From assembly GCF_000447795.1 (NCBI RefSeq), contig NZ_AUNI01000015.1, positions 124,001 through 188,000 on the forward strand: a stretch of DNA of 64,000 bases, read 5' to 3'. The notes beneath the pieces were generated by a model. It saw only the letters and a list, made by a program, of their open reading frames with translations, searched no databases and was not told the origin of the DNA. Of this stretch, positions 5,138 through 53,461 are shown one piece after another; the stretch's first letter is position 1; each line of letters starts with the position of its first letter. The stretch is from Bacteriovorax sp. Seq25_V. GTDB lineage: Bacteria > Bdellovibrionota > Bacteriovoracia > Bacteriovoracales > Bacteriovoracaceae. The position numbers were made by a program, and so were the translations under genes.

Positions 5138-5613
5138 TATTTTTGAATCTTATCTAATACGCCGTTAACAAATGAAGAAGATTCCTTCGTACCAAACTTC
5201 TTAACAAGATTAATGTACTCATTAAGAACTACTTTTTTTGGAGTATCTTCAAAAAGAATTTCATAGGCACCAAGGCTTAAAACTGCTTTTTCAATTGTTC
5301 CAATTGAAGAAAGACCTCTTTTGTTCAGGCTCTTTTCAATCGTTCCAAGAATTGCTTTTTCTTCGTTTAAAAAGCCTTTTATAAGTTTTTGACCATGATT
5401 TTGAATTGAAGGATTAAGACCATTACCTATATGCTCTTCATCTTCTTTGATATAACTTTCTTCGAATTCAACGATGGCTTCAATATACTTTGCATCTTCT
5501 GCAATAATCGCATCTTTTTCTTCTGAAAAATCATCTAGGAATAGACGATAGATAAATTTAAATGCGTACTCTCTTGCTGCTGTTTTATTGCTGAAGTTGG
5601 CCGGGTTCACCAT
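5137..5613 (-). CDS. nusB: Transcription antitermination protein NusB
   Basis: Binds boxA RNA with NusE and supports antitermination of rRNA operons. At 158 residues it has the all-helical NusB pattern: an N-terminal AAREYAFKFIYRLF (basic helix plus the aromatic pair usual in NusB), an acidic middle helix, and the conserved C-terminal block GAYEILFEDTPKKVVLNEYI followed by VKKFGTKESSSFVNGVLDKI, the most diagnostic part. The order nrdR-nusB is common in bacteria. The start overlaps nrdR by 29 bases. Confidence 0.95.
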   Translation of the reverse strand: MVNPANFSNKTAAREYAFKFIYRLFLDDFSEEKDAIIAEDAKYIEAIVEFEESYIKEDEEHIGNGLNPSIQNHGQKLIKGFLNEEKAILGTIEKSLNKRGLSSIGTIEKAVLSLGAYEILFEDTPKKVVLNEYINLVKKFGTKESSSFVNGVLDKIQK

Positions 5614-6085
5614 GTTTTCCTTTGCTAATACTTATTTTTTCAATACTTTTTTGTAAACTATCGACGAAACCATTAATGTCTTTAAAGCTCCAGTAAAATG
5701 AAGCAAAACGAACATAGGCTACAGGATCTAGTTGGTAAAGTTTCTGCATTGTAACTTCACCGACGATCTTTGCTGAAACTTCCCCTGGAAAATTCTCTGC
5801 AAGTGCCCTTTCGATTTCATCTATTAAACGGTTAAGATCTGAGGTTGTAACGGGACGTTTTTGCGACGCCTTGTAAATCCCCTTGCTGATCTTTTCACGA
5901 TTATACGGTTCTCGTCTTTTATCATTCTTTACTATAACTGGCATCTGCAATTGTAATTTTTCATATGTGGTAAATCTCTTTCCACATTCAAGGCACTCAC
6001 GTCTACGCCTAACAGCGAGGCCATCACTCAAGTGGCGAGAGTCGATAACTTTTGTTTCTTGTGCGTTGCAAGACGGGCAGTACAT
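5585..6085 (-). CDS. nrdR: NrdR, ATP/dATP-sensing repressor of ribonucleotide reductase genes
   Basis: The 166-residue protein has the N-terminal zinc ribbon MYCPSC...ECLECGKRF (Cys3, Cys6, Cys31, Cys34) and an ATP-cone from about residue 49 (MPVIVKNDKRREPYNREKI) to 139, exactly the NrdR plan. The family binds NrdR boxes upstream of nrd operons when dATP is high. No nrd genes are in this window. It heads the nrdR-nusB-hypothetical operon. Confidence 0.96.
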   Translation of the reverse strand: MYCPSCNAQETKVIDSRHLSDGLAVRRRRECLECGKRFTTYEKLQLQMPVIVKNDKRREPYNREKISKGIYKASQKRPVTTSDLNRLIDEIERALAENFPGEVSAKIVGEVTMQKLYQLDPVAYVRFASFYWSFKDINGFVDSLQKSIEKISISKGKHGEPGQLQQ

Positions 6086-6140
6086 AAAATAATCCTTAAC
6101 TCGTCTTTTTTACTTAGATTACCCCTTTCTGACAAGTCTT

Positions 6141-6292
6141 AACTGCTCCCTTAAAATGGGGATGGAGTTTAATATTGCATAGATATTATAGACACTTATA
6201 CTTTCGAGATTTGGCTGCGATAAAAAAGTTGAGCTAAGTATTTGGAGCTATTGGATATTTCAAGAATCTATCCCCATCATTGTGCAGCAGTT
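6141..6292. repeat. Inverted-repeat element, copy A (152 bp)
   Basis: The ends are an imperfect inverted repeat of 23 bases: the left arm starts AACTGCTCC and ends ATGGGGAT, and the right arm reads ATCCCCAT...GCAGTT; about 17 of 23 positions pair. The same outer AACTGC/GCAGTT and inner ATGGGG/CCCCAT boxes occur in copies B and C at nearly the same separation, so this is a family of short interspersed elements. It carries no ORF. A TA dinucleotide flanks ACTGC...GCAGT on both sides, but this is not repeated at the other copies. Confidence 0.75.
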
Positions 6293-6293
6293 A

Positions 6294-6322
6294 TTGACCA
6301 ATCGAAATTGGCTCCCTAACAT
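6294..6322 (+). promoter_or_regulatory. Sigma-70-type promoter of the mini-gene
   Basis: TTGACC (6294-6299, 5 of 6 to consensus) and TAACAT (6317-6322, 4 of 6) are separated by exactly 17 bases. The -35 begins one base after the right end of element A. The predicted start is near 6329, about 24 bases before the mini-gene ATG. A small CCAAT-CGAA-ATTGG hairpin (6298-6311) lies inside the spacer and could be an operator. Confidence 0.6.
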
Positions 6323-6352
6323 TTAAAGACACACAATAATTGAGAGGCACGA

Positions 6353-6418
6353 ATGAATCTAACAATCCAGCTAGTACTGCTCGTTTGTTTTGTAACACTA
6401 GTAAATCAACTCTTTTAA
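6353..6418 (+). CDS. 21-residue hydrophobic peptide (small membrane protein or leader peptide)
   Basis: The ORF starts MNLTIQLVLL and ends FVTLVNQLF; 10 of 21 residues are Leu or Val. GAGAGG lies 5 bases before the ATG, a 17-bp-spaced promoter lies upstream, and a GC-rich hairpin starts 9 bases after the stop, so it forms a self-contained transcription unit. The length and single hydrophobic stretch resemble Ibs-type toxic membrane peptides, while the Leu/Val richness followed by a hairpin also resembles a branched-chain amino-acid leader peptide. No leu or ilv gene follows, so I favour a small membrane peptide. It is bracketed by elements A and B. Confidence 0.5.
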   Translation: MNLTIQLVLLVCFVTLVNQLF

Positions 6419-6426
6419 TCTGTTGG

Positions 6427-6445
6427 CCCCTCCTGAGTGGAGGGG
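6427..6445 (+). terminator. Hairpin ending the mini-gene
   Basis: CCCCTCC-TGAGT-GGAGGGG is a perfect 7-bp stem with a 5-base loop, followed by ATGCTTTCTTT. The T tract is interrupted, so termination may be partial. It lies 9 bases after the mini-gene stop and 12 bases before element B. Confidence 0.6.
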
Positions 6446-6456
6446 ATGCTTTCTTT

Positions 6457-6611
6457 AAACTGCTCCAGTTAAATGGGGACAACTTTAGAAATTTCCCTGC
6501 TATATTAGATATTTGCTGTCTTAATATTCGAACTGCCAGAAATAACTTTATTTATCGCGAAGTAATTATTGAGTAATCAATGATCCTGTCCCCATTTAAC
6601 TGGAGCAGTTT
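6457..6611. repeat. Inverted-repeat element, copy B (155 bp), perfect 25-bp arms
   Basis: The arm at 6457-6481 (starts AAACTGCTCC, ends ATGGGGACA) is the exact reverse complement of 6587-6611. Each arm also holds a small internal palindrome, AACTG-CTC-CAGTT. The 105-base interior has no ORF with a ribosome site and shares a TTCGA box near the middle with copies A and C. The arrangement resembles a BIME-like pair of REP units or a MITE; no transposase is in the window. Between it and the next gene at 6708 I see only an A+T-rich stretch and a possible promoter (TTGAGT, AATAGT). Confidence 0.85.
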
Positions 6612-6707
6612 ATAGTTTCTACTATTTTTTGATCTAAGCTCTTGAAAATATGTAATCAAATAAAGAAATAAGTTGAGTTTTTTGCTCGGGTTACCGAATA
6701 GTCTGAA

Positions 6708-7832
6708 ATGAAGCTTCTAAAAATCATACTATTATCTTACTTGCTATCGGCTTGCTCGTCGACGACTCTAATTAGAGATCCTGCTTCGATTGGTTTAGAG
6801 AATTGTTTTGATGCAATTTCTAGCTTTGACGTAACTAATACTCGAGGCCTTGGCACGATAGGTTCACAAAAATTGTCTCCAGGCTGGAGGCTTGAGGAAT
6901 CTGACTGGGTTCGTTTAAATCAGGGACAGCGAAATACTCTTCACACCCTAAGGCCTGATCAAAGACTATGGAATATTGAAAATCTCAATCGCGTTAATCT
7001 TCCTGTACCAGTTGCGACACTTAAAGATCAGAAGAAATTTTCAAAGATTCATGAAGTGAAACTTCTTGATGTTGCAGATATTGATGGGAATCCTGTTCGA
7101 CCATTGTTTAAAGTTGATGGAGTCATGAAAGAAGTTGAGACTAACTACGGTCAAAATGTTCGTATGATGCTAGCAAAACTTCCAAGTGGAGAATTTCTTT
7201 TTCCGAAAGAACTTGAGCAGTTCGAAGAGGCTGCGATGTTGGCAGATGAATTTTTCAGAAAGAATTTTTCTGATTACGATGATTATCATGTTTATGTAAG
7301 TATTCATCAAGGTAAGGTCGTAAAAGAAAATACTCAGGCTCGTCTTGGAAAAAGTGTTGGAGATGATATTGTTCAAGGAAAGAGAACTGGTGCGCATGTT
7401 GATGGCTATCAAGTTCCAGAACATATTGAAGATACTACAATTGATCACACAGTCATGGTTTCAGATAATGTCCCAACAGAATTCTTCAATCATCCTTTTG
7501 ATATTGAAAATATTGGATACTCTGAAGCTCTTCAAAAGTTTGATGATCTCGCAGACATGAGAAAAGTCGTCTATGCACAGCCGTATGTTCTTGCGCTGAT
7601 TGATGCTTACGGTGTCCATCGAATGGGGATTGCGACCGAGGACGGAGAGAGATCGTTTATAAAATTTAAGCTTTCGAAGAAAGTTTTCAATCAAGAAGGT
7701 AATACTTTAAATCCATTAATCGATTATAAGAAGCTAAAAGAAGATGCGACTTCAGGTTTACAGAATCCTCTTTGGAAACGTTGGACAAGTAAGGATGTGA
7801 ATTTAAGCGAAGGTAGGGGCAATGTTGAATAA
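6708..7832 (+). CDS. Predicted lipoprotein of unknown function
   Basis: 374 residues. The first 16 residues (MKLLKIILLSYLLSAC) are a lipoprotein signal with lipobox LSAC, so the mature chain is probably lipid-anchored in the periplasm or outer membrane. The rest has no family I recognise and is rich in acidic and aromatic residues. It overlaps the next gene (nucleotidyltransferase-like) by 11 bases, so they form a two-gene operon and may work together at the envelope. No good ribosome site precedes the ATG; an AATAGT box ends 5 bases upstream, so a leaderless transcript is possible. Confidence 0.7.
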   Translation: MKLLKIILLSYLLSACSSTTLIRDPASIGLENCFDAISSFDVTNTRGLGTIGSQKLSPGWRLEESDWVRLNQGQRNTLHTLRPDQRLWNIENLNRVNLPVPVATLKDQKKFSKIHEVKLLDVADIDGNPVRPLFKVDGVMKEVETNYGQNVRMMLAKLPSGEFLFPKELEQFEEAAMLADEFFRKNFSDYDDYHVYVSIHQGKVVKENTQARLGKSVGDDIVQGKRTGAHVDGYQVPEHIEDTTIDHTVMVSDNVPTEFFNHPFDIENIGYSEALQKFDDLADMRKVVYAQPYVLALIDAYGVHRMGIATEDGERSFIKFKLSKKVFNQEGNTLNPLIDYKKLKEDATSGLQNPLWKRWTSKDVNLSEGRGNVE

Positions 7833-10503
7833 GAAGCTTGCGGCCTCATTATTATTTCTAATACTTTCTGCGCTTCTGATTTATAAGAATCCAGGTCAAA
7901 GATTTCCGGCCAGTGGACCTTCAAGAGAAGGTGTTTTCATAGGATCCTTTGATCCGTTTACAAAAGGACATATGAGTGTGGTCCTTGCGAGTATTAAAGA
8001 TTTATCATTAGATAAAATTCATATTCAGGTTAATTCTCTTTCAAATAAAGACTATTCCGCATCGATTGGGGAGCGAATTGAACTCATTAAGAAGGCATTA
8101 GAGCACTATCCACTTGATGTTGAAGTGGTCATTGAAGCAGAGCCGGTTGAGGGAAAACGAAAATTTGTTCAAAATCTCCATGAAAAAACTGGAGCCGATA
8201 TTTATCAAGTTATGGGAGCAGACGTTTTAGAAAAGAGTGATGAGCTTTTTGGGGATCTACCTTATGTAAAGCGATTTGTTGCTCGAAGACTTGATGATGA
8301 TACACTTCAAAATATTGATTTCAAAGATAATAAACTTGCAAGCTCGGTGAATTTTTTAGATGTGAGGGCCAAGGGAATCTCATCGACTAAAGTAAAAGAA
8401 ATGCTTCGAAATGGTGATATACCATACGCGTATCTTGAAGGAAATGTGATAGATACAATCGTCAATAAAAAGCTTTATCAATTTCCTGCCCAAGATGTCT
8501 CACAATTAAAGAAAGATTTTTTTGGTAAATTCTTTGTCTCGTATATGACTCTATTAAAAGAAGAGATTGATGGACTAACATTGCCTGATTTTAGTAGTGC
8601 TCAGGATGTTCAGTTTACATGGAGTCAGTCAAATGAAGGCTTTCTTGAACATCTCATTCGAGTTGTTCTAAAAGAAAATAAAGAACTAACACAAGAAGAA
8701 AAGTCAGAGGTTTGGAAAGTTTCAAGAAAAATCTATCAAGATTTATCAATTCAAAAACTTGTCCAAGACTATGAAGTTCTGGTTGGAGAGAAGTCTACTA
8801 AAGCGCAAGTTTTTTTAGGAACGTTTGAAAATATTAGTAATGAATTTATTGAGGAAGTATCTCAAGCTATTGAGAATAGCGATGAAAAAATTATTTTTGC
8901 AATTGATGCTAATTATATCAAAGCTTCAAGTATTCCAGAAGCTAGAGAGAGAAGGTTGTTAGATTATATTGAAGAAAAATTTCCTTTATATAGAGATAGA
9001 TTTGAAGTTGTTATTTTTGAACAAGGTGAAAAACCACATATTGTTCAAAATCTTGTTGATCGAAAATTCGGGGTGAAAAGCTCTGTAGTTAAAATTCAAA
9101 CGAAGTCGGATGAAAGAATTCTTCCAATGAACTTTAATCGTACGATGCTTGAGGAAGTTGAAAAAAAGCTCGTTCTTATGGAAGATGAATTGCGATCTTC
9201 ATATATTACATTAAACGAAGAAGGTTACTCTCTAAATGATTTAATTCAAAAACTAGAGACAATAGGTGATGAGAGTGCTGATTATGTAAAGGAATGGGAA
9301 AAGAGAAATATTTTATATCAAGAAAAATTAGATCGATACTACACATACAATTTCGATTATCAAATTATTTCAAGCATGCTTGAACTTGATGATATTCTCA
9401 ATGAGTCTGCAAAGAGTATGGATCGCTTTAAAAGAGCAGAGCTTTTAAAATATAAAGAACGTATTCAAGGCCATTTTACGCAATATTTTATGAATAAGGA
9501 AAACTATGGCGCCAAAAAAGATGTTTTACGAGTGGATCATTTACAGGGATATTTTAAGTCTCTCCGTGAAACTTATCATTATATTGAAGGAGAACCGACT
9601 TTAAGCTTCGCTGAGAAGATCTATTCGATGAGTAAAAGATTTTCTAAGAAATTTAACTCGTTGATAAAAGAAGTGAGATTACTTCCTGAAACATCAAATC
9701 TTTTGTTCACTTATTATATTCAAAAATCAAAAAATCCTCAGGATGCAGTGGTCGCGCTTAATAGATACTTTAAGAAAAAAGCAAGAGTCGAGGGCGTTAA
9801 TATGAAGATGTATGATGATATATCTTCTTTTAACAAGAAAGCAGACGATGTTGTGACAATCTTTACTCCGAATCACGTTCAGGGGGATCTCGACGGTATG
9901 TTAATGGGAGAGTTGCAAAGAGATAACTCTCTTCTATTTGCAGCAAGATCACGTATGAAGTGGAGGCAGAAATTATTTGATCAGGTTCCGAATTCAAATC
10001 TAATTGTTGTCGGTGGGGAAAGTGATCCTGTGGATGATGTTCTCACAAAGATTAAACTTGGGAACTCAAAAGAGGTGTATATTTATCCCGAAGGTCATTT
10101 CGCCGGAATGACAGGGGAGACGCGTGTACCAAAAATTGGCTTCTCTGCCGGTTTGTTACGAAAGTTAAAAATGGAAAATATTAAGTACGAAATTGTACCT
10201 ATGACGTTTCATGGTAGTGCTGGAATTGTTGGAGATGTTGGAAACTTAAAAGGAAAAGAGCTTGCAATTAATACTGGACGAGTATTGGATGAGAAAATGA
10301 CGAGTTTTATAGATAAGAACATTCACTCTCGAACATTTTATAATACATTTGTTAGAGCGAATTGGTTAGAAGATCATGCCCTTTCTTCTGATAATATTCA
10401 CGGAAGCCCAAGTGCAAAAAAGCTGAAGTTAATTCTAGGAAGATATAAATTAGGTGATGTCGATAGTTGTCATGATGTTATGAAGTCGCTTCTCTCAATT
10501 TAA
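7822..10503 (+). CDS. Large membrane-anchored protein with nucleotidyltransferase domain, degenerate second copy and acyltransferase-like C-terminus
   Basis: 893 residues. Residues 6-21 are a hydrophobic anchor. Residues 37-230 look like a cytidylyltransferase/NMNAT-type fold: GSFDPFTKGHM (41-51) carries the T/HxGH motif and GISSTKVKEM (about 185-194) the ISSTxxR-like motif. From about residue 328 the pattern repeats without HxGH (VFLGTFENISNEF...PHIVQNLVDRKFG parallels VFIGSFDPFTKGH...RKFVQNLHEKTG), so a degenerate duplicate is likely. The C-terminal third has PNHVQGDLDG (from 684) and YIYPEGHFAG (754-763), reminiscent of PlsC-type motifs, although the NHxxxxD spacing is not exact. Substrates are unknown. 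The stop overlaps the convergent LysM gene. Confidence 0.7.
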   Translation: MLNKKLAASLLFLILSALLIYKNPGQRFPASGPSREGVFIGSFDPFTKGHMSVVLASIKDLSLDKIHIQVNSLSNKDYSASIGERIELIKKALEHYPLDVEVVIEAEPVEGKRKFVQNLHEKTGADIYQVMGADVLEKSDELFGDLPYVKRFVARRLDDDTLQNIDFKDNKLASSVNFLDVRAKGISSTKVKEMLRNGDIPYAYLEGNVIDTIVNKKLYQFPAQDVSQLKKDFFGKFFVSYMTLLKEEIDGLTLPDFSSAQDVQFTWSQSNEGFLEHLIRVVLKENKELTQEEKSEVWKVSRKIYQDLSIQKLVQDYEVLVGEKSTKAQVFLGTFENISNEFIEEVSQAIENSDEKIIFAIDANYIKASSIPEARERRLLDYIEEKFPLYRDRFEVVIFEQGEKPHIVQNLVDRKFGVKSSVVKIQTKSDERILPMNFNRTMLEEVEKKLVLMEDELRSSYITLNEEGYSLNDLIQKLETIGDESADYVKEWEKRNILYQEKLDRYYTYNFDYQIISSMLELDDILNESAKSMDRFKRAELLKYKERIQGHFTQYFMNKENYGAKKDVLRVDHLQGYFKSLRETYHYIEGEPTLSFAEKIYSMSKRFSKKFNSLIKEVRLLPETSNLLFTYYIQKSKNPQDAVVALNRYFKKKARVEGVNMKMYDDISSFNKKADDVVTIFTPNHVQGDLDGMLMGELQRDNSLLFAARSRMKWRQKLFDQVPNSNLIVVGGESDPVDDVLTKIKLGNSKEVYIYPEGHFAGMTGETRVPKIGFSAGLLRKLKMENIKYEIVPMTFHGSAGIVGDVGNLKGKELAINTGRVLDEKMTSFIDKNIHSRTFYNTFVRANWLEDHALSSDNIHGSPSAKKLKLILGRYKLGDVDSCHDVMKSLLSI

Positions 10504-52959: not shown

Positions 52960-53385
52960 ATGGCCAAAAAGAAAACTGCTAAAAAAGCGGCGACAAAAAC
53001 TACTAAGAAAACAGCAACTAAAACTGCTGCGAAAACAACGAAGAAAGTTACAAAAAAAGCAACTGCTTCTAAGAAGGCAGCTTCTAAAAAAGTTACGAAG
53101 AAAGTTGAAAAGAAGACAGAGAAGAAAGTAGCTAAAAAAGTAACGAAGAAAGTTGAAAAGAAAGTAGCTAAAAAAGCAACTCCTGCGAAAAAAGCAGCTC
53201 CGGCAAAGAAAGCGGCTCCTGCGAAAAAAGCAGCCCCAGCAAAGAAAGCAGCTCCTGCAAAAAAAGCGGAAGCTAAAACAACAAAGAAAGTAACAACAGC
53301 TAAGAAAGCGGCTCCTGCGAAAAAAGCGGCTCGCGAAAAAAGAAAAAGCAGCTCCGGTAAAAAAGGAAACTGCAAAGAAAGCTGA
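52960..53385 (+). CDS. Lysine/alanine-rich histone H1-like protein, N-terminal part of a frameshifted gene
   Basis: As read, 141 residues of KKAA, TKKV and PAKKAA repeats, like bacterial H1-type DNA-binding tails. I use the ATG at 52960 (MAKKKTAKK) with GGAG 9 bases upstream. At 53330 the repeat loses two bases (GCT C GCG instead of GCT CCT GCG), giving REKRKSSSGKKGNCKES and a stop. A +1 shift restores KKEKAAPVKK and joins without a stop to the acidic domain ending at 54088. It should condense or coat DNA. Confidence 0.65.
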   Translation: MAKKKTAKKAATKTTKKTATKTAAKTTKKVTKKATASKKAASKKVTKKVEKKTEKKVAKKVTKKVEKKVAKKATPAKKAAPAKKAAPAKKAAPAKKAAPAKKAEAKTTKKVTTAKKAAPAKKAAREKRKSSSGKKGNCKES

Positions 53386-53461
53386 ACCGAAAAAAGCAGC
53401 TGCTCCAAAGAAAGCTAAGAAAGAACCAGCGAAGCCAAAGAAGAAAGCTGCTGAGCTTGAA

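Follow-up and report, generated by a model that had tools for sequence, protein, structure and literature searches.

Organization of the nrdR locus

The window, which is the whole stretch of 64,000 nucleotides of Bacteriovorax sp. Seq25_V DNA that was analyzed, contains a candidate small gene (the mini-gene, 6294-6445) between two elements, A (6139..6293) and B (6456..6612). The mini-gene is located upstream of and divergent to nrdR (5585..6085, reverse strand; TIGR00244, E 2.4e-54), a conserved neighbor that serves as the synteny anchor. Its promoter, TTGACC-17-TAACAT (6294..6322, forward strand), scores 9/12 in a consensus scan and consists of TTGACC at 6294-6299 and TAACAT at 6317-6322, with its first base directly after element A. 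By itself, such a promoter-like pair is at chance level, as three were found and 2.3 are expected in the consensus scan. The ribosome-binding region (6341..6352, forward strand) carries GAGAGG approximately 6 nt 5' of the ATG of a 21-codon open reading frame (6353..6418, forward strand), which reads MNLTIQLVLLVCFVTLVNQLF followed by a stop codon. After the frame, a terminator-like hairpin, CCCCTCC-TGAGT-GGAGGGG (6427-6445, forward strand), is found with an imperfect T tract, the whole spanning 6427..6455; this hairpin is beyond chance, with 0.2 expected. The succession of element A, promoter, reading frame, hairpin and element B described in the original prediction is present, with positions correct to within 1-2 bases.

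The peptide has the highest hydrophobicity among the 222 ATG-started reading frames of 18-30 aa in the 64-kb window. With 21 aa, a GRAVY of 1.84 and no charged residue, it is a short hydrophobic peptide fit for a single membrane helix, as type I toxins are. The mRNA of the mini-gene is predicted to be unstructured (z -0.74), and its ribosome site is open.

Downstream of element B, a lipoprotein-like reading frame of 374 aa is located at 6708-7832 on the forward strand. It has no match in Pfam or NCBIfam, and no relative of this gene was found in 57 other genomes of the family, so that no synteny can be derived from it.

A homolog in Bacteriovorax sp. DB6_IX

Within the genus, five other genomes were compared, and a homolog of the mini-gene is carried by one of them (G004; loci L121/L185), which was taken as Bacteriovorax sp. 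DB6_IX based on 3492 bp identical to a DB6_IX contig. At the nrdR locus of DB6_IX, a TTGACC-17-TAACGTTTAA promoter and an AGGAG ribosome site, equivalent in position to that of the window, precede the GTG-started reading frame VSIAIQLILLVCFVAMVGQMM. The promoter pattern common to both species is TTGACC-17-TAACrT, and the conserved parts are TTGACC, the spacing and TAAC[A/G]TTTAA. The terminator-like hairpin of the window is not conserved in DB6_IX.

The two 21-codon frames encode MSIAIQLILLVCFVAMVGQMM in DB6_IX and MNLTIQLVLLVCFVTLVNQLF in the window. With M counted for both start codons, the peptides are identical in 12 of 21 columns, the hydrophobic replacements are conservative, and the conserved core is IQL-LLVCFV--V-Q. 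Like the window peptide, the DB6_IX peptide has no charged residue, and its GRAVY is 2.18. The nucleotide differences between the two frames are distributed as 9/2/13 over the three codon positions, and the NG86 method gives a dN of 0.33 and a dS of 2.85 (dN/dS ~0.12). When the same 23 changes were placed randomly, at least the observed identity together with an open frame was obtained in 0.7% of 20,000 trials. The frame is thus conserved in a second species with substitutions of the coding type. This provides good evidence that the frame is coding, drawn from one species pair, since two species only carry the gene.

The gene order in DB6_IX is nrdR, the mini-gene, a receiver-domain frame (PF00072) and glyA, the last assigned from reading its translation. 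No element is present on either side of the mini-gene at this locus; divergence of the flanks obscures a clean empty site for A and B. The downstream neighbor of the mini-gene also differs, being a response regulator in DB6_IX and the lipoprotein-like gene in the window. In another genome, G001, nrdR is followed by glyA without the mini-gene. The receiver-domain frame of DB6_IX (L121:2226-2609) encodes a stand-alone response regulator, and its top match in the window genome is just 32% identical. Its nearest paralog in G001 has no peptide gene upstream.

When 129 genomes of the family and 369 of the phylum were searched with profiles, the peptide gene was recovered in the window species and DB6_IX only. 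Among 84,980 species genomes, a scan that detects close relatives matched DB6_IX alone. Weak peptide matches elsewhere, of which 14 were inspected in the family and three of three in the phylum, resemble chance; all three phylum matches are antisense frames inside longer reading frames. The peptide has no match in Pfam, NCBIfam or PADLOC at E values up to 10 and none in viral contigs, and the window has no match in Rfam.

Elements A and B and their partner insertion sequence

Element B (6456..6612) is an intact MITE of 157 bp with the ends TAAACTGCTCC...GGAGCAGTTTA. Its inverted repeat has 29-nt arms that are 97% complementary, with 0 expected for arm sequence. Within the window genome, 68 places match it, and the best second copy is 93% identical over 157 bp. 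By end pairing, the B family has approximately 21 copies of ~157 bp and a few longer ones, with the ends TAAACTGCTCC(A/G..)TTAAATGGGGA(C/T); the copies were catalogued from search matches, which makes their number approximate. TA borders most copies at both ends without a longer duplication, and this TA is either a duplication or part of the repeat.

Element A (6139..6293) is an older, decayed member of this family. At ~155 bp, it nearly has the usual family length of 157 bp; its ends are imperfect (AACTGCTCCCTTAAAATGGGGAT / ATCCCCATcattgtGCAGCAGTT) and its interior is diverged. Its left end fits the family end consensus with at most 4 mismatches over 25, and a whole-element search with A recovered family ends elsewhere (E 9e-4). 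Both elements are thus short and non-coding with terminal inverted repeats, imperfect in A. The promoter region of nrdR keeps CTGACAA, which suggests that A sits between two divergent promoters.

The same ends as those of the B family are carried by an autonomous partner in this genome, insertion sequences of 1.04 kb. With approximately 21 short copies and four 1.04-kb copies listed, the family is dispersed and multicopy. An intact transposase of 304-308 aa is present in two of the 1.04-kb elements, C9:18239-19277 (L016:1501-2538) and C17:136644-137683 (L027:490-1527). Other copies are broken, and several more are located at contig ends. The similarity of the transposase to IS1, ISL3 and IS1595 is distant and under the NCBIfam cut-offs, and its Pfam matches are weak. 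Against the curated IS1 model it reaches 37.2 bits, under the cut-off of 100, which makes it related to IS1 but not a filed member. In a sample of 57 other family genomes, 15 carry relatives of the transposase, and the 1.04-kb insertion sequence may represent an undescribed group near IS1. The transposase has a zinc-ribbon-like N-terminus and an IS1-like C-terminus, and the element ends are TA-bounded.

Judged by these features, A and B are MITEs with a live-looking partner. Like bacterial MITEs derived from insertion sequences, the family is short, non-coding and present in many copies, and its terminal repeats are common to an autonomous element. It differs from them in being TA-bounded without a longer target duplication and in having a partner transposase with only distant similarity to the IS1, ISL3 and IS1595 models.

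Origin and possible role of the mini-gene

The explanation that we consider probable is that of a conserved, lineage-restricted small gene beside nrdR, with later and independent MITE insertions, whose peptide is a putative single-helix modulator of a membrane protein. The locus orders in DB6_IX, G001 and the window indicate that the shared ancestor of the window species and DB6_IX already carried the mini-gene beside nrdR, before the two split; it was either gained in that ancestor or lost in G001. The simplest view is that the window lineage acquired the elements, and the new gene downstream, afterwards. Two independent insertions of the MITE family would then have flanked the mini-gene, and the IS1-like insertion sequence sharing their ends could have mobilized them. 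The different extents to which A and B have decayed argue for such separate insertions. In a simple random model with assumed gap sizes, 16% of trials placed two of 25 elements in one intergenic gap, and a pair such as A and B is therefore unremarkable.

Since the mini-gene occurs in DB6_IX without the elements, the peptide is what is conserved, and the bracketing is secondary. The peptide would be made and would insert as a single uncharged helix into the inner membrane, where it may modulate a membrane protein partner, as known small membrane proteins do. An uncharged helix of 21 residues with its own promoter and an open ribosome site would be most like the small proteins of the inner membrane that act on a partner. 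Small single-span membrane proteins, such as KdpF, AcrZ and MgtS, are very short and hydrophobic. The window peptide shares these properties, as well as an own promoter and ribosome site, but differs from these proteins in having no library match and no charged residue at all. In the window, the terminator would make the mini-gene monocistronic; in DB6_IX, the transcript could continue into the receiver-domain response regulator. Among the proposals of the original prediction, an unknown small-protein system has held up, as the reading frame, promoter spacing and ribosome site are all kept in DB6_IX. More tentatively, predators of the Bacteriovorax group may have a new, lineage-restricted family of membrane peptides that are 21 residues long and uncharged, maybe tied functionally to a response regulator or to predation and, in the window, kept through two flanking transposon insertions.

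Genes this small usually escape annotation. In this group of predatory bacteria, which has received little study, a gene of 21 codons is supported by comparison between species, and its peptide, which has a conserved core, is amenable to testing.

A type I toxin-like membrane peptide restrained by an RNA antitoxin, also proposed originally, is unlikely. The size and hydrophobicity of the peptide suit the membrane-associated class of these toxins, which have fewer than 60 aa and one helix; IbsC, for example, is a 19-aa peptide without positive charges at its C-terminus (PMC8309996). Like IbsC and ShoB, the peptide is a hydrophobic helix in the range of 19-26 aa (PMC8309996). In contrast to these toxins, the mini-gene has no visible antisense antitoxin gene and no structured message, is present in a single copy, and is conserved beside a housekeeping gene. 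No antisense promoter-like site was found over the gene in either species, nor in 6300-6456 of the window, by consensus scans, which can miss one. The open ribosome site and the lack of a PADLOC match also speak against this role.

Another role, control of the downstream gene by the frame as a leader peptide, has a rather low probability. In DB6_IX, the response-regulator frame begins ~44 bp downstream of the peptide frame, no terminator intervenes, and a leader role is conceivable there. However, it leaves conservation in the window unexplained because a terminator, a MITE and the unrelated lipoprotein-like gene follow there, and the peptide is still kept. Moreover, the frame has no runs of a single amino acid, and no attenuator-type alternative fold is evident.

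It is quite improbable that the frame arose by chance within a conserved regulatory RNA or promoter region. Only two sequences are available, and the promoter is at chance level by itself, but the substitutions are of the codon type, start and stop are kept, and neither an RNA family match nor a stable fold was found.

The mobile cassette of the original prediction, with A and B as a composite unit and the mini-gene as cargo, is rejected, and its probability is very small: A and B are of one family and sit tight against the gene, but DB6_IX has the gene at the same syntenic locus without either element, the intervening segment is single-copy in the window genome, and the degree of divergence differs between A and B, with the ends of A decayed. 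The elements also occur ~20 times elsewhere without the mini-gene. The only other two short elements spaced within 1 kb of each other enclose an unrelated frame of 220 aa. Elements packed tightly around a gene need not form a cassette.

Other features of the window

The lipoprotein-like frame is followed by a frame of 893 aa (7822-10503, forward strand). Its N-terminal domain is cytidylyltransferase-like (NadD/CoaD-like), and the long C-terminal remainder has no Pfam match. At 53040-53415, tandem repeats with an 18-bp period are present that are lysine/alanine-rich and presumably resemble histone-H1-like proteins.
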